NCBI GenBank assembly: GCA_021323755.1
Contig: JAJPKJ010000045.1
Span: forward strand, 62,001-126,000
DNA from: Chitinophagales bacterium
Lineage (GTDB): Bacteria; Bacteroidota; Bacteroidia; Chitinophagales; Chitinophagaceae
Reading direction: 5' to 3'
DNA: 64,000 nt
The notes under the pieces were generated by a model. It saw only the letters and a list, made by a program, of their open reading frames with translations, was not told where the DNA came from and made no database searches. Positions 13,816 to 24,436 of this stretch are shown here, piece after piece. Within the stretch, counting starts at the first letter, position 1. Every line of letters begins with the position of its first letter. Position numbers and translations under genes: made by a program.

Positions 13816-16800
13816 ATGTCGGGCAATTCTACATACCAGGTTTTTCAAACAAGCTCAACAGGCAGATGGCAGCGTTTCAAATGGGCAGGACGTTTTCTTC
13901 TTTTCCTGCTGTTACTGGGAATTGCAGTTATTATCATTACATTATCGCAGACACATATTCCCGATCTTCCCAAATTTGTAAATGCACAGGAAAAGCAAGT
14001 GTTGCTCGATACCAACAGCAGTTGGCTCACCAAAAAAAGTAAAATCCTTAAACAATACGATGGCTTTAGAAAATATATAAATGAAAAAGAAGCCTACAAA
14101 GCCGGTAACTATCCAATTCCAAAACGATTTAGAAAAAAGAACGGGATCATAGTACAGGCAGATTCCAGTTTTTATTCCTTCAAAAAATTTACGACAGGAA
14201 TACGCGCCGCATTTTATGTAAACTGGAATCCATTATCCTATTCTTCGCTGGAACAAAACATCTCGCATTTGAACATGGTAATTCCGGAATGGCTTTTTAT
14301 TGATCCCAATGAAGATACATTGGTTACTAAAATTGATAGAAAAGCGTTAGACCTGATGAATAAATCGGGCGTAAAAACCCTTCCGCTTCTCACCAATAAT
14401 GATAATGGAATTTTTCGCGGAGATGTGCTGCACAAAATATTTTCTGATCGCAAAAAGAAAGAGCGCTTAATAAATGACATTATTAATGTCTTAAGAAAAG
14501 ATAGTCTGGATGGAATCAATATTGATTTTGAAGAATTGAAAGAATCAAAAAATGAGACCCTGGTCCTGTTTCAAAAAGAATTGTATCAAAGATTACATGC
14601 CAATGGATTTTTAGTTACCCAAGATGTTGAGCCTTTTAATGATGATTATAATCTGACCGAGCTTTCCAGATATAATGATTATATCTGTTTGATGGCCTAT
14701 GATCAATCTTCAGAAAGCACGGACCCCGGTCCGATCTGTCATCAAAAATGGATTGAAGCTGCGGTAGACCAGGCTGCACAAAAAATCCCCCCGCAAAAAA
14801 TGATATTGGCTCTTGCCGCCTTTGGATACGATTGGAAGTTGAATGATAAAGAAAAACCGGTTTCTGCAAATCCCGTCACTTACCAGGAAGCTTTAACGCT
14901 GGCCAGAAGTTACCAGGGCGAAATTGATTTTGACAATAATTCCTACAATTTGCATTTTAGTTATGGAGATGATCGCGGCGAAGATCACGAAGTTCATTTT
15001 ACCGATGCAGCCACTGCATTTAATTCATTGCGCTTTGCTGTTGAATACGGATTAAGCGGCGTATCCCTGTGGAGGCTTGGCTCCGAGGATTCACGCATCT
15101 GGGATTTCTATGACCACGACATGGGCAAAGACAGTCTTCAAAAACATTTCGACTTCTCCACTTTCGATAATGTGAAAACATTGATCACCAATGAAACGGT
15201 TTCTTATTCCGGCCAAGGAGAAGTATTGGATATTCTGGGCGGTCCATCAAGCGGAAAAATAACTCCTGAAATTGATTCCAGCGAATTGTTGATCAGTGAA
15301 GAAAGATATGATAGTCTTCCCTCAAAATGGATAGCCAGAAAATATGGCACCCGCGATAAAAAGAAATTGGTACTGACTTTTGATGATGGACCGGATCCAA
15401 AATATACTCCGCAAATATTAGATATCCTCAGCCGCGAAAAAGTTCCGGCAGCATTTTTTCTTGTAGGCATTAATGCAGAAAATAATATTCCGATAGTAAA
15501 AAGAATTTATCGCGAGGGGCATGAAATAGGCAATCATACATTTACGCATCCAAACATTGCAAAGGTCAGCACCAAGAGAGCAAAACTTGAAATTGAAGCA
15601 ACGCGATTATTGCTGGAATGTATCACCGGTCATTCAACGGTCATGTTTCGCGCGCCATTCAATGCCGATTTCGAGCCACAGAAATACGAAGAGTTGGTTC
15701 CGGTTGCCATTGCACGCCAACTCAATTATTTGGATATCGGCGAATCCATCGATCCGCTTGACTGGGAACCTGGAACCTCCGCCGATTCTATCGTCGCCAG
15801 GGTTATTCGCCACAAGCAGGAGATGACGAACCAGGATCTCAGCGGTAATATTATTCTTCTGCATGATGCTGGCGGCGAAAGCAGGGCTGCCACCGTTGAA
15901 GCTCTGCCCCAGATCATTCATTATTTCAAGCAACGTGGTTATACATTCACAACCGTTGCCGACCTGCTGGGAAAGAAAAAAGATGACCTGATGCCCCCTG
16001 TCTCAAAAGGAAGCGGTTATGTGCTTTTACAGATAAACTATTATCTCGCCGAGTTTGGTTATTGGGGGGGAAATATTTTATCTTCTTTATTTATCGTATT
16101 TATTATTCTTTCTGTATCTCGCATTATCTTTTTAGGTTTTATCGCAACCTATCAATATTTATGGGAAAGAAAACTTGCCTTACAACCTTTCTGGCTTGCC
16201 AATATTAGACAGGCCCCGCTGGTCAGTGTAATTGTTCCGGCATATAATGAAGAAGTGAACGCAGTAAGTTCACTCAATAATCTCTTACAAACTGATTATC
16301 CCAATTTTGAAATAATCTTTATTGATGATGGCAGCAAGGATAATACATTCAATAAAGTGAGCAGTGCTTTTGCCAACAATGCAAAAGTGAAAGTCTTGAC
16401 CAAACCCAATGGCGGAAAGGCTTCTGCATTGAATTATGGTATCATGCGATCCAGCGCAGATTATGTTATTTGCATTGATGCCGATACAAAACTCTTACCC
16501 AATGCTGTTTCAAAATTAATGATGCATTTTTATCCGACGCCCGAAGGGCGCGCGGAAATCGGCGCTGTGGCAGGTAACGTAAAAGTGGGTAACCAGGTTA
16601 ATTTACTCACTAAGTGGCAGGCGATTGAATACGTAAGCAGTCAAAATTTTGACCGAAAAGCTTTTGCTTACCTGAATGCAATAACTGTTGTGCCCGGTGC
16701 GATCGGCGCCTTCAGAAAACAAGCCCTTGAAGACGCCGGCGGATTTACAACAGACACGTTAGCTGAAGATTGCGATCTCACCATTCGCATTTTGCGTTGT

Positions 16801-17313
16801 GGCTATAGCGTGGAGAACGAAGCAAAGGCGATCGCCATGACCGAATCTCCAGAAACTTTAAAAATGTTCTTTAAACAACGTTTTCGCTGGAGTTATGGTG
16901 TAATGCAGACCTTCTGGAAAAACCGGGATGTGTTATTCAACTGGAAATACAAAGCGCTTGGCTGGGCTGCCTTTCCGAACATACTGATCTTTCAATATAT
17001 CATTCCATCCATTATCCCACTGGCAGACCTGTTCATGTTTATCGGCCTATGGACAGGCAACACAGAAAAGATCCTGGCATATTATCTTGTGTTCATGTTG
17101 GTGGATGCTGCCGTAGCCTTTCTCGCATTTAGTTTTGAAAAGGAAAATAAATGGAAATTATTATGGCTTATTCCGCAAAGATTGGTTTGGCGATGGTTAA
17201 TGTGGTTTGTGCTGTTCAAAGCGATACGACGCGCATTTAAAGGTGAGTTACAACATTGGGGGGTTTTGAAAAGAACCGGTAATGTAAAAGATATCACTCC
17301 GGTAAGAGCCTGA
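13816..17313 (+). CDS. Trifunctional GH18-like hydrolase / CE4 polysaccharide deacetylase / GT2 glycosyltransferase
   Basis: One 1165-residue membrane protein joins three carbohydrate-active domains. A membrane helix (about 24-45) precedes a GH18-like domain (about 110-430) with the motif DGINIDFEE, the YaaH-type form of the GH18 signature that keeps the catalytic glutamate. A NodB/CE4 deacetylase domain (about 515-720) shows LTFDDGPDP, HTFTH and RAPFN. After another membrane segment (about 750-780) comes a GT2 domain (about 800-1050) with IVPAYNEE, DADTK, AEDCDL and QRFRW (QxxRW, a processive synthase mark), then further membrane helices. By analogy with PgaC (GT2) and PgaB (deacetylase plus hydrolase), it probably makes, trims and deacetylates a beta-linked GlcNAc-type glycan; the product is inferred. 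The catalytic domains flank the membrane, as export would need. Confidence 0.9.
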   Translation: MSGNSTYQVFQTSSTGRWQRFKWAGRFLLFLLLLGIAVIIITLSQTHIPDLPKFVNAQEKQVLLDTNSSWLTKKSKILKQYDGFRKYINEKEAYKAGNYPIPKRFRKKNGIIVQADSSFYSFKKFTTGIRAAFYVNWNPLSYSSLEQNISHLNMVIPEWLFIDPNEDTLVTKIDRKALDLMNKSGVKTLPLLTNNDNGIFRGDVLHKIFSDRKKKERLINDIINVLRKDSLDGINIDFEELKESKNETLVLFQKELYQRLHANGFLVTQDVEPFNDDYNLTELSRYNDYICLMAYDQSSESTDPGPICHQKWIEAAVDQAAQKIPPQKMILALAAFGYDWKLNDKEKPVSANPVTYQEALTLARSYQGEIDFDNNSYNLHFSYGDDRGEDHEVHFTDAATAFNSLRFAVEYGLSGVSLWRLGSEDSRIWDFYDHDMGKDSLQKHFDFSTFDNVKTLITNETVSYSGQGEVLDILGGPSSGKITPEIDSSELLISEERYDSLPSKWIARKYGTRDKKKLVLTFDDGPDPKYTPQILDILSREKVPAAFFLVGINAENNIPIVKRIYREGHEIGNHTFTHPNIAKVSTKRAKLEIEATRLLLECITGHSTVMFRAPFNADFEPQKYEELVPVAIARQLNYLDIGESIDPLDWEPGTSADSIVARVIRHKQEMTNQDLSGNIILLHDAGGESRAATVEALPQIIHYFKQRGYTFTTVADLLGKKKDDLMPPVSKGSGYVLLQINYYLAEFGYWGGNILSSLFIVFIILSVSRIIFLGFIATYQYLWERKLALQPFWLANIRQAPLVSVIVPAYNEEVNAVSSLNNLLQTDYPNFEIIFIDDGSKDNTFNKVSSAFANNAKVKVLTKPNGGKASALNYGIMRSSADYVICIDADTKLLPNAVSKLMMHFYPTPEGRAEIGAVAGNVKVGNQVNLLTKWQAIEYVSSQNFDRKAFAYLNAITVVPGAIGAFRKQALEDAGGFTTDTLAEDCDLTIRILRCGYSVENEAKAIAMTESPETLKMFFKQRFRWSYGVMQTFWKNRDVLFNWKYKALGWAAFPNILIFQYIIPSIIPLADLFMFIGLWTGNTEKILAYYLVFMLVDAAVAFLAFSFEKENKWKLLWLIPQRLVWRWLMWFVLFKAIRRAFKGELQHWGVLKRTGNVKDITPVRA

Positions 17314-20558: not shown

Positions 20559-21413
20559 ATGCTTCATCGTTCCACGATTCAACTTCTTCGATTTCATTTT
20601 TCTTTTTTTTTGATGCCTGTATATTGGTATGCGTTGGGACAGGTTACCCATAAAAACTGGTGGCATGCTGTATTGATATTCATCATTCTTCACGCTCTGG
20701 TTTATCCGGCCAGCAATGGCTACAACAGTTTTATGGACAGGGATGAAACGAGCATCGGGGGATTAAAAAATCCCGCACCCCCTACAAAACAACTTTTTTA
20801 TGTTTCCGCATCAATGGATCTTATTGCCGTATTATTGAGTTTTTTAGTGAGTATATATCTCGCCGCCGGAATTTTTGCGTATATACTTGCATCTAGAGCT
20901 TATAGTTATCGGGGAATCCGCTTAAAAAAATTTCCATTTATCGGCTATCTCACGGTAATTATTTTTCAGGGTGCGGTGATCTTTTTTTTGGTTTATTGCG
21001 GCAGTGCTCAGAACAAAATTTTACAAGCACCGGTATTATGTATGTTGTCAAGTCTTTTGCTGATTGGTGGTTTCTATCCGCTCACGCAAATTTATCAGCA
21101 TGAAGCGGACATAAAAGACAATGTTAAAACCATCAGTTATGTATTGGGTTATCGCGGCGTGTTTATTTTTTGCGGAACCCTGTACTGTGCTGCATTTACC
21201 ATGATGGGCATTTATTTTTTTACAACCAATCAGGCAAAGGAATTTTTCGTTTTAACAACCGCGATGCTGCCCGTCATCGTATATTTTTTACAATGGGCGG
21301 TTAAAGTCTGGAAAGATACCAATGAAGCAAATTTTTCAAACACCATGCGGATGAACATGGTCGCATCGGTTTGTACCAATATTGGCTTTATAGTTGTACT
21401 GATAATGAAGTGA
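20559..21413 (+). CDS. UbiA family prenyltransferase
   Basis: A 284-residue polytopic membrane protein, about eight or nine helices. The first aspartate-rich motif NGYNSFMDRDE (about residues 50-60) matches the UbiA Mg2+/diphosphate-binding signature NxxxDxxxD in modified form. The second region near YPLTQIYQHEADIKDN fits the position of the second Asp-rich motif. UbiA enzymes attach a prenyl chain to an aromatic acceptor or to a related lipid. It opens the unit with the type III polyketide synthase, methyltransferase and FAD oxidoreductase, which suggests that a polyketide phenol or quinone is the acceptor; that is inference. Confidence 0.85.
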   Translation: MLHRSTIQLLRFHFSFFLMPVYWYALGQVTHKNWWHAVLIFIILHALVYPASNGYNSFMDRDETSIGGLKNPAPPTKQLFYVSASMDLIAVLLSFLVSIYLAAGIFAYILASRAYSYRGIRLKKFPFIGYLTVIIFQGAVIFFLVYCGSAQNKILQAPVLCMLSSLLLIGGFYPLTQIYQHEADIKDNVKTISYVLGYRGVFIFCGTLYCAAFTMMGIYFFTTNQAKEFFVLTTAMLPVIVYFLQWAVKVWKDTNEANFSNTMRMNMVASVCTNIGFIVVLIMK

Positions 21414-21464
21414 GGGTTGATCAAATTATTTTCTCAACAAATGATCTAAAAATATCTATAAATT

Positions 21465-22553
21465 TTGAGTAAGATTATTTCAATTGGCACAGCTGTTCCG
21501 CAGTTTAAGCATAAACAAAATGACATTGCGGTTTTCATGAACCGCGTTTTTGCAATGAATGAAGGCGAAAAAAGAAAATTAAAATTTCTTTACCATCAAA
21601 GCGGAATTGAACATCGTTATTCAGTGATCGGAGACTACAGCAATAATATCAATGACTGGACATTTTATCCGCAATCAGAAAATCTCGAGCCATTTCCTTC
21701 ACTTGAAAAAAGAATGCTGTGGTATAATAAATATTCGGCTCCGCTTTCTGCACAAGCCATTAAAAATTGCATCACCAATAAAATTCATTCGCATCAGGTC
21801 ACTCATCTTATCACCGTAAGCTGCACGGGCATGAGTGCGCCGGGATTGGATTTGCAGCTAATGGAATTATTGCAATTACCTAAAAATATTTTCCGTACAT
21901 CGGTAAACTTTATGGGTTGCTATGCGGCAATTCATGCCCTTAAGATTGCCGATGCCATTTGTTCTGCTGAAAAAAAGGCAAAAGTATTGATCGTCTGCAC
22001 AGAATTATGTTCATTGCATTTTCAACGAGGAGCAACCACAGATAATATCACCTCAACACTTTTATTTGGTGACGGCGCTGCCGCAGCATTGATCACTGGT
22101 GATGAAAATGACAATAAAGGCATTGGCTTAAAACATTTTTATGCCGAGGTCGTACCAAAAGGGAAAAATGACATGGTGTGGGAATTGTCATCAACAGGTT
22201 TTTTAATGACACTGAGCAGTTATATCCCCGATTTTATTGAAGAAGATTTTAAAAAACTTACCGTTACTGCCTTACAGCAATCCGATCTTTCAGTGGCTGA
22301 TGTTACGCATTGGTGCATCCATCCCGGAGGGAAAAAAATACTAGCAGCCATTGCCAAAAGCCTCGACTTAAAAAATAATGAATTGGATCATTCTTACGAT
22401 ATTTTAAAAGATTATGGCAATATGTCGTCGCCAACGATATTATTTGTTTTGGAAAAAATGATGAATACGCTTGATCATAAAAAATCAAACACCATTTTTG
22501 GCGCAGCATTCGGACCTGGATTAACCATGGAAACCTTTATTGCACAGACATAA
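21465..22553 (+). CDS. Type III polyketide synthase (chalcone/alkylresorcinol synthase-like)
   Basis: A 362-residue homodimeric thiolase-fold ketosynthase that extends a starter acyl-CoA with malonyl-CoA and cyclises the chain without an acyl carrier protein. The Cys-His-Asn triad is visible: cysteine in NFMGCYAAIHAL, histidine in CIHPGGKK and asparagine in DYGNMSSPT. TAVPQ at the start and GAAFGPGLTMET at the end are typical. The start codon is TTG (21465); the nearest upstream ATG is followed by a stop. It lies 51 bp after the UbiA gene and 41 bp before the methyltransferase. Confidence 0.94.
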   Translation: MSKIISIGTAVPQFKHKQNDIAVFMNRVFAMNEGEKRKLKFLYHQSGIEHRYSVIGDYSNNINDWTFYPQSENLEPFPSLEKRMLWYNKYSAPLSAQAIKNCITNKIHSHQVTHLITVSCTGMSAPGLDLQLMELLQLPKNIFRTSVNFMGCYAAIHALKIADAICSAEKKAKVLIVCTELCSLHFQRGATTDNITSTLLFGDGAAAALITGDENDNKGIGLKHFYAEVVPKGKNDMVWELSSTGFLMTLSSYIPDFIEEDFKKLTVTALQQSDLSVADVTHWCIHPGGKKILAAIAKSLDLKNNELDHSYDILKDYGNMSSPTILFVLEKMMNTLDHKKSNTIFGAAFGPGLTMETFIAQT

Positions 22554-22594
22554 TTTCTTGCAGGTCCGTATCTTGTCATGTTTATTATTCGTGT

Positions 22595-23293
22595 ATGGAT
22601 TTTTCAATTCGGTCACATAAGAAAGAATTGCTCGATCGCGATGATATTCCTTTCAACGCCATTCAAAAAAATATGGAAGAACTGGAATTCATCAATCGAT
22701 ATCTTGGAGGGCATCGCATCACCATCAGGGGTTTCAGGCAATTGCTGCGCACTAAAAAGGAAATTACGGTTTGCGAAATTGGATGTGGCGGTGGTGACAA
22801 TTTGATAGCCATTGATAAATGGTGCAAAAAGAAAAAGATCATTGCAAAATTTATTGGCATTGACATTAACCCAAATTGCATCACCATTGCAAGATCAAAA
22901 ATACAAAATGAGCATTTTCATTTTTTCATTTCCGATTATCGCAAATTCGTTTTCACCGACCCAAAACCGGATATTATTTTTTCCTCATTGTTCTTTCATC
23001 ATTTTACCGATGAAGAATTAATATTCATGTTGCAATGGATGATGAACAATTCAAGAACAGGAATTTTCATTAATGACCTGCATCGTCACCCGCTGGCCTA
23101 TCATTCTATAAGCTGGCTGACAAAAATCTTTTCCGAGTCTTATCTCGTTAAAAACGATGCTCCTTTATCTGTATTAAGAGGATTCAAAAAAAAAGATTGG
23201 AAATTGCTAATGGAGAAATCAGACCTCATTGATTATTCATTAACCTGGCAATGGGCTTTCCGATGGTTGCTCGTTGTTCAACACCGCGAATAA
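22595..23293 (+). CDS. SAM-dependent methyltransferase of the type III PKS locus
   Basis: A 232-residue class I methyltransferase. The SAM-binding glycine motif VCEIGCGGGDNL is near residue 60, followed by an acidic strand end GIDINPNC and the motif IIFSSLFFHHFTDEEL. It resembles methyltransferases found beside bacterial type III polyketide synthases. The stop codon abuts the ATG of the FAD oxidoreductase (TAAATG), so co-translation is likely. Expected substrate: the phenolic product of the polyketide synthase (inference). Confidence 0.87.
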   Translation: MDFSIRSHKKELLDRDDIPFNAIQKNMEELEFINRYLGGHRITIRGFRQLLRTKKEITVCEIGCGGGDNLIAIDKWCKKKKIIAKFIGIDINPNCITIARSKIQNEHFHFFISDYRKFVFTDPKPDIIFSSLFFHHFTDEELIFMLQWMMNNSRTGIFINDLHRHPLAYHSISWLTKIFSESYLVKNDAPLSVLRGFKKKDWKLLMEKSDLIDYSLTWQWAFRWLLVVQHRE

Positions 23294-24436
23294 ATGAAAG
23301 ACGCCAATCGACAATATGATGTAGCCATAGTTGGCGGCGGATTAGCCGGATTATCGCTATCCATTCTATTGTCAAAAGCAAACTACCGGGTATGCTTATT
23401 CGAAAAAGAAAAATATCCGTTTCATAAAGTCTGCGGCGAATATATCAGTTTTGAGAGCTGGAATTTTTTGGAAGAGTTGGGAATTCCATTGAGCGATTGG
23501 GATCTTCCGGTTATTGATCATTTACTGGTTTCTTCGCCCAATGGTCTTTTTCTGGAACATGACCTCCCATTCGGTGGATTTGGGATAAGCAGGTATAAGT
23601 TGGATTCAGCACTGGCAGGGGTGGCAAGGACATCCGGTGTTTCATTGCATGAGGAGGATAAGGTCACCGATATTGAATTCGATGGTACTTTATTCAATAT
23701 TAGGAGTTCTGGCAATAATTGCACTGCAAGAATTGTTTGCGGAAGTTTCGGCAAACGCAGCAACCTGGATATTAAATGGAAAAGAAATTTTACCCTAAAA
23801 AAGAATAACAAACTTAATAATTATGTGGGTGTGAAATATCATATCAAAACAACATTTCCCGGCGGGCTGATTGCCTTACACAATTTCAAGAACGGGTATT
23901 GCGGTATTTCACAAATAGAAGAAGGAAAATATTGTTTGTGTTATTTGACTTCGGCAGGGAATCTTGGCACTAGCAATAACTCCATTCAGAAAATGGAAAA
24001 AGAAGTTCTGCAGAAAAATCCATTTCTAAATAAAATATTCGCTGAGTCTGAATTTTTATTCGGGGAACCAATCACCATTTCACAAATTAGTTTTGAAAAG
24101 AAGAAGCAGGTTGAAAATAATATCATCTTCCTTGGCGATGCAGCGGGAATGATCACTCCACTATGCGGAAACGGAATGAGCATGGCGCTTCACAGTGGTA
24201 AAATTGTCTTTCATTATATCGATGATTTTCTTCAAAACAAGATCACCCGGGATGAGATGGAAAGGAATTACACAACACAATGGAATAAGGAATTTGGCAA
24301 AAGGTTAAGAGCTGGGAGAGCCCTACAATATTTCTTTGGAAATGAATTTCTTTCAAACCTATTCATTCGTACCGTAAAACCATTCCCAAAATTTATATCC
24401 TACCTGATAAATCAAACGCATGGCGGTGCATTTTAG
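23294..24436 (+). CDS. FAD-dependent oxidoreductase (geranylgeranyl reductase/hydroxylase-like)
   Basis: A 380-residue flavoprotein. The N-terminal Rossmann motif DVAIVGGGLAGLSLS is followed by the acidic strand LFEKEKYPFHKVCGEYIS, and the second FAD motif is IIFLGDAAGMITPLCGNGM near residue 280. The HKVCGE sequence is typical of the geranylgeranyl-reductase-like/flavin monooxygenase group. In Streptomyces srsABC, a type III PKS, methyltransferase and flavoprotein make methylated phenolic lipids, and this gene fills the third role here. The exact reaction, hydroxylation or double-bond reduction, cannot be told from sequence. Confidence 0.88.
   Translation: MKDANRQYDVAIVGGGLAGLSLSILLSKANYRVCLFEKEKYPFHKVCGEYISFESWNFLEELGIPLSDWDLPVIDHLLVSSPNGLFLEHDLPFGGFGISRYKLDSALAGVARTSGVSLHEEDKVTDIEFDGTLFNIRSSGNNCTARIVCGSFGKRSNLDIKWKRNFTLKKNNKLNNYVGVKYHIKTTFPGGLIALHNFKNGYCGISQIEEGKYCLCYLTSAGNLGTSNNSIQKMEKEVLQKNPFLNKIFAESEFLFGEPITISQISFEKKKQVENNIIFLGDAAGMITPLCGNGMSMALHSGKIVFHYIDDFLQNKITRDEMERNYTTQWNKEFGKRLRAGRALQYFFGNEFLSNLFIRTVKPFPKFISYLINQTHGGAF

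Follow-up and report, generated by a model that had tools for sequence, protein, structure and literature searches.

A GH18-CE4-GT2 fusion protein in a Chitinophagales bacterium: a probable synthase of an amino-sugar polymer with attached tailoring domains

The gene described here occupies positions 13816..17313 of the plus strand of the window, the whole 64,000-nucleotide stretch of Chitinophagales DNA that was analysed, and encodes a protein of 1165 aa in which a GH18 hydrolase domain, a CE4 deacetylase domain and a GT2 glycosyltransferase domain follow one another in this order (all features of this gene given below are on the same strand). The frame starts with ATG, is open over 1167 aa and contains no internal stops, and the Pfam matches are all far above the curated cut-offs, namely, GH18 at residues 185-422 (PF00704, 8.7e-22), CE4 at residues 512-616 (PF01522, 4.3e-31), and GT2 at residues 804-973 (PF00535, 2.1e-28) and 803-1028 (PF13641). 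The signature residues of the three families are all present, with the exception of an Asn at one acidic position of the GH18 domain. The intact frame, the Pfam matches and the motifs bear out the preliminary description, which had placed the three domains in one membrane polypeptide; direct reading found its motifs where it had put them, along with every further catalytic motif of CE4 and GT2. Most of the genomes sampled from its genus contain full-length orthologues with 66-82% identity, and a search for the three-domain order across 297 Bacteroidota genomes, which the preliminary description had proposed, recovered full-length homologues with 48-64% identity in 16 genomes beyond the one under study, so that the fusion is not a product of chance.

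The distribution of hydrophobic segments and charges suggests how this protein sits in the membrane. The N-terminal tail carries a conserved motif (Q-V-F-Q-T..RW.RFKW..R; residues 8-26, 13837..13893), in which Q8, F10, R17, W18, W23 and R26 are invariant in 39 Bacteroidota proteins. It is followed by transmembrane helix 1 (residues 27-45, 13894..13950; hydropathy 2.67), with a net charge of +4 before the helix and, by the positive-inside rule, the N-terminus inside; helix 2 (residues 758-776, 16087..16143; hydropathy 2.71) is predicted to run from outside to inside, and the ectodomain of about 700 residues that separates the two contains no convincing helix by hydropathy. Past the GT2 domain, a membrane region covers residues ~1051-1135 (16966..17220), where hydropathy shows one helix at 1056-1074 and another at 1086-1104, to which the AlphaFold2 model adds, with low confidence, a long C-terminal helix at 1118-1153; by analogy with the processive GT2 family, these helices and helix 2 presumably form the translocation path. 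The hydropathy pattern and the positive N-terminal tail thus support a topology with the tail and GT2 in the cytoplasm and with GH18 and CE4 outside, and the helix/ectodomain/helix/GT2 pattern is alike, by hydropathy, in distant homologues. The placement of GH18 and CE4 away from the cytoplasm, on which the proposal of the preliminary description depended, holds up on hydropathy, charge and the published layout of MatB (see below). The full-length AlphaFold2 model, built on a shallow alignment of 16 sequences, reached a pLDDT of 55.9 and a pTM of 0.38, and the ectodomain model, also from a shallow alignment, scored 64.6 and was good over the GH18 barrel and part of CE4 only.

Strong homologues of the fusion were found in 17 of the 297 Bacteroidota genomes (~6%, its own genome included) and in 22 of the 395 genomes of a separate class-level sample. 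Outside the Bacteroidota, plasmid-borne full-length homologues with 30-37% identity are present in Novosphingobium, Sphingobium, Sphingomonas, Sulfitobacter and Deinococcus; Pfam detects all three domains in the Deinococcus protein, in the same order as in Bacteroidota, and this order is found in Sphingomonadales as well. Kocuria and Streptomyces possess a two-domain CE4-GT2 form, and phage records yielded partial GT2 matches only. In RefSeq, the homologues go by the names 'glycosyltransferase' or 'bifunctional polysaccharide deacetylase/glycosyltransferase family 2'. The N-terminal tail motif is recognizable in the Deinococcus protein and the two-domain Kocuria protein and is weaker in Sphingomonadales and Sulfitobacter; its core before helix 1, VF.T/D....RW.R, is common to the three-domain fusions and the Kocuria protein (L053, L055, L059), which suggests a single origin of both forms. 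Finally, a table published in 2012 (PMC3413522, Table 4) includes a GH18-CE4-GT2 protein of Acetivibrio cellulolyticus (ZP_09465738) among multifunctional enzymes. This protein comes from another phylum, and the table entry, which gives neither function nor topology, allows a comparison by listing, not by sequence; by that listing, the three CAZy families and their order are the same as here. The fusion is therefore not unique to this organism, and a view of it as an unusual invention of this organism finds no support, given that Deinococcus, Sphingomonadales and the Acetivibrio listing share the order and that the CE4-GT2 part follows the plan of MatB.

Some further loci carry possible variants or partners of this system. 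A 'chitinase' next to the Kocuria fusion was considered as a GH18 counterpart and rejected, the match being weak and under the cut-off (22.9 vs 29.6). The plasmid copy of Sulfitobacter sp. OXR-159 (L058:5221-8730), annotated as two genes, was likewise rejected as a natural two-gene form; it has an in-frame stop inside CE4 and is probably a broken copy. In another Sulfitobacter sequence (L057:9015-11552), the end of the fusion gene is overlapped by a gene for a DUF3131 protein, a possible local partner. In the haloarchaeon Halorussus (L061:3550-6077), a related GT2 gene has its start overlapped by a DUF2334 gene, and the pair might be a split counterpart in archaea.

The GH18 barrel (residues ~125-435, 14188..15120) is of the YdhD/SleL type: sequence matches in the PDB are 3cz8, 5jh8 and 4s3j, and a Foldseek search with the barrel model recovered 5jh8, a Chromobacterium chitinase, as the best match (E 8.4e-24, TM 0.86 by target), with SleL also matched. 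SleL/YaaH, YdhD and 5jh8, the closest solved relatives by both sequence and fold, are stand-alone or wall-targeted enzymes and, unlike the fusion, have no synthase attached. The catalytic strand DGINIDFE (residues 232-239, 14509..14532) is part of the DGINIDFEE motif, which direct reading places at residues 232-240; Glu239 is expected to be the proton donor, Asn235 replaces Asp at the second acidic position, and D232, the first Asp of the motif, varies even inside the genus. The preliminary description had seen here a YaaH-type GH18 with Asn at this position and the catalytic Glu kept. Both residues are as it said, but the Asn is not a rule of the subfamily, as YdhD has Thr there, SleL/YaaH has His and 5jh8 has Asn; by the same token, Asn235 is no objection to a functional site, and with D237, E239, Y295 and W419 all in place, the GH18 site of this protein looks usable.

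The same four residues are kept in 45 of the 51 Bacteroidota proteins and in those from Deinococcus and Sphingomonadales. In the Bacteroidota genus g43, by contrast, all six members carry Ile instead of the Tyr of the MxYD motif (Tyr295); four of them also lack the catalytic Glu239, which is substituted, and in one the supporting Asp is changed. A sister genus in the same family, g42, has an intact site. The Sulfitobacter protein has lost the site, and its GH18 region gives no Pfam match; in the actinobacterial CE4-GT2 fusions, the domain is absent. Conservation, too, is lowest for GH18 among the three domains (in the homologue L048, 38% identity vs 63% and 65% for the other two). These losses and the low conservation, together with Asn235, could indicate that GH18 is a mere glycan-binding guide in the whole family and that no hydrolysis takes place. 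We consider such a reading rather unlikely in view of the retention of the four residues in the present protein and most of its homologues, the occurrence of residues other than Asp at the same position in SleL/YaaH and 5jh8, and the fact that SleL-type enzymes are active. A second GH18 gene, with a stronger match of 207 bits, lies on the same contig on the minus strand (L066; G000:C19:4411-5364) and is the sole other GH18 found in the genome.

A linker with its own conservation (residues ~436-507, 15121..15336), in which G466, G468, E469, P477, G480 and P502 are invariant in Bacteroidota and which can also be seen in Deinococcus and Alphaproteobacteria, connects the barrel to CE4 (residues ~508-722, 15337..15981). 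The latter contains the motifs LTFDDGPDP (520-528), GNHTFTH (572-578), FRAPFN (611-616), DPLDW (646-650) and ILLHD (680-684) by direct reading; the residues D523, D524, H574, H578, R612, D649 and H683, which cover the Asp-His-His metal triad and the catalytic Asp, Arg and His motifs of a CE4 deacetylase, are invariant in 57 homologues, and the nine catalytic or metal-binding positions that were checked are unchanged in every one of the 57. The best NCBIfam scores are those of PdaB, PgdA and NodB, and PgaB and IcaB are far from the fusion in the CE4 tree; as with PdaB, PgdA and NodB, the domain belongs to a kind whose substrates are beta-1,4-linked. The GT2 domain (residues ~796-1040, 16201..16935) shows comparable constancy: the DxD, ED and QxxRW signatures of processive enzymes, here IDAD (887-890), LAED (982-985) and QRFRW (1021-1025) by direct reading, are invariant in the 57 homologues, and so are all eight positions checked. 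Its closest NCBIfam model is PgaC/IcaA (TIGR03937), with 206.6 bits against 95 for NodC and 85 for cellulose synthase; the score does not reach the equivalog cut-off of 422.3 bits. PgaC/IcaA is also the closest model in seven of the seven distant homologues tested, MatB-like ones included. A tree that also contained three NodC proteins, staphylococcal IcaA and, from E. coli, PgaC and BcsA groups the fusions with the MatB-like proteins on the PgaC/IcaA side, apart from NodC and BcsA (97/95), with some of the joins on long branches. By both score and tree, the domain thus falls on the PgaC/MatB side.

The preliminary description had further held that loss of catalytic residues in homologues would speak against coupled synthesis and trimming. 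Such loss affects GH18, in g43 and Sulfitobacter, and never CE4 or GT2 in the 57 homologues, which weakens the case for an obligatory coupling of hydrolysis and strengthens that for the coupling of synthesis and deacetylation. Given that the CE4 and GT2 residues never change whereas the GH18 site is lost or absent in some lineages, synthesis and deacetylation are the constant core of the system, and hydrolysis is an optional or accessory activity, perhaps one of binding.

A guide to the function of this core is MatB of Streptomyces, a protein with an extracellular CE4, a helix and an intracellular GT2, that is needed, together with MatA, for PNAG production, the product being reported as beta-1,6 PNAG (PMC5972031); it is also needed for hyphal aggregation (PMC4391728). 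The fusion shares with MatB a PgdA/NodB-type CE4 outside the cell membrane, the single helix after it and an intracellular GT2 closest to PgaC, the topology of the fusion being defined by hydropathy only, and the homologous CE4-GT2 fusions of Streptomyces and Kocuria group with its GT2 domain. In contrast to the fusion, MatB has no GH18, works with MatA and resides in a Gram-positive envelope without an outer membrane. The fusion thus follows the plan of MatB, with a GH18 of the YdhD/SleL type placed in front. In E. coli, PgaB and PgaC together provide an inner-membrane synthase and, outside, a CE4 and a TIM-barrel hydrolase (PMC5933820), so that the same activities are arranged round one polymer on two proteins (GH153, CE4 and GT2); the fusion differs in having GH18 instead of GH153, another domain order and a distant CE4, and searches of its genome recovered neither PgaA nor PgaD. 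We therefore reject the notion of PgaB joined to PgaC: the hydrolase is GH18 by Pfam and of the YdhD/SleL type, and the CE4 tree sets PgaB and IcaB apart, so that these two parts do not derive from PgaB. NodB and NodC of rhizobia likewise pair a deacetylase, with a CE4 of the same broad type, with a GT2 chitin-oligomer synthase; however, they are separate proteins, NodC groups apart in GT2, and there is no GH18.

The fusion gene stands alone, as neither a conserved neighbour nor PgaA, PgaD or a second PgaC-like match accompanies it. In an all-against-all comparison of the neighbours at 29 loci, the two flanking genes, dnaX on the upstream side and one for a 2-oxoacid dehydrogenase acyltransferase on the downstream side, recur in the genus and a few close relatives only; no partner gene is conserved beyond these, and unrelated housekeeping genes flank the fusion elsewhere, in agreement with the earlier suggestion that no separate operon is needed. 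In the genome of 4.08 Mb, which is 99.8% complete, model searches detected no PgaD above the cut-off, and the sole TIGR03937 match above 100 bits is the fusion gene itself. No PgaA exporter scored above the model cut-off in this genome or in 21 fusion-bearing genomes. The description of the fusion as a 'self-contained machine' was, however, too strong because no part of the protein crosses the outer membrane.

From the domains, their intact active sites, the topology pattern and the relationships laid out above, we infer that the fusion is probably a synthase of amino-sugar polymers that sits in the inner membrane and carries tailoring domains, namely, a MatB-like poly-GlcNAc synthase, a tethered deacetylase and an accessory GH18. 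Under this scenario, the cytoplasmic GT2 would use a UDP donor to polymerize a GlcNAc-type sugar processively, and would pass the chain through its own membrane helices; on the periplasmic side, the emerging chain would meet the tethered CE4 and lose some of its acetyl groups, and the tethered GH18 barrel would bind it and, where Glu and Tyr are intact, as in this protein, might cut it at sites that are still acetylated. The preliminary proposal of coupled glycan synthesis, deacetylation and trimming would then be right in outline, with trimming a probable part of it, and overstated with respect to novelty and self-sufficiency. The most likely product is partly deacetylated poly-N-acetylglucosamine, with beta-1,6 linkage slightly favoured over beta-1,4; the latter may apply since the CE4 is of a beta-1,4-acting type and GH18 enzymes, too, are associated with bonds of this kind. 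The PgaC score under the cut-off, the beta-1,4-type CE4, the long branches at some joins of the GT2 tree and the absence of a PgaA exporter from the genome count against the PNAG-synthase reading.

Alternatively, the product could be a chitosan-like beta-1,4 polymer or oligomer, such as the backbones of Nod factors, with GT2 making chitin, CE4 acting as a chitin deacetylase and GH18 as a chitinase that sets the length. The CE4, closest to PgdA, PdaB and NodB and apart from PgaB and IcaB, and the GH18, whose nearest solved structures are named chitinase or SleL, would fit; the preference of GT2 for PgaC/IcaA over NodC in both score and tree, and the reported beta-1,6 PNAG made by MatB with the same CE4 type, make this an unlikely solution. 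It is more improbable still that GH18 and CE4 modify or open peptidoglycan, rather than the polymer, so that the GT2 product can pass or be anchored: relatives of both, of the SleL/YdhD and PgdA/PdaB types, do act on peptidoglycan or spore cortex, but MatB has the same CE4 type and yet a PNAG product, and the simpler reason for joining them to a synthase would be that they act on what it makes.

Why polysaccharide synthases keep a hydrolase nearby, as in the case of PgaB, BcsZ, AlgL and PslG, is a standing question (PMC5933820). The GH18-CE4-GT2 architecture itself has been on record since the 2012 table, and the CE4-GT2 plan is known from MatB. A literature search, with subscription journals mostly outside its reach, found nothing published on what the three-domain form does, and it seems that nobody has tested this. 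In the fusion, synthase, deacetylase and hydrolase are inseparable, and natural versions exist in which the hydrolase site is intact, broken or missing against unchanging CE4 and GT2 sites, so that this series of GH18 losses in one gene renders the role of an attached hydrolase testable. With the poly-GlcNAc synthase reading extended across the family, one might tentatively envisage a widespread one-gene route to partly deacetylated poly-GlcNAc in pga-less Gram-negatives, in which a single protein provides synthesis, inner-membrane transport, deacetylation and length control, with GH18 turned from cutter into binder in some lineages. If true, this cutter-to-binder series would be natural material for understanding why glycan synthases carry hydrolases, and the findings suggest that even Bacteroidota lacking pga genes may be able to produce poly-GlcNAc. 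Elsewhere in the window, at 20559-24436, genes for a UbiA-type prenyltransferase, a type III polyketide synthase (chalcone/stilbene synthase family), a methyltransferase and an FAD-dependent oxidoreductase adjoin one another; this four-gene set, kept in several relatives, resembles a small pathway of the quinone or alkylresorcinol type.
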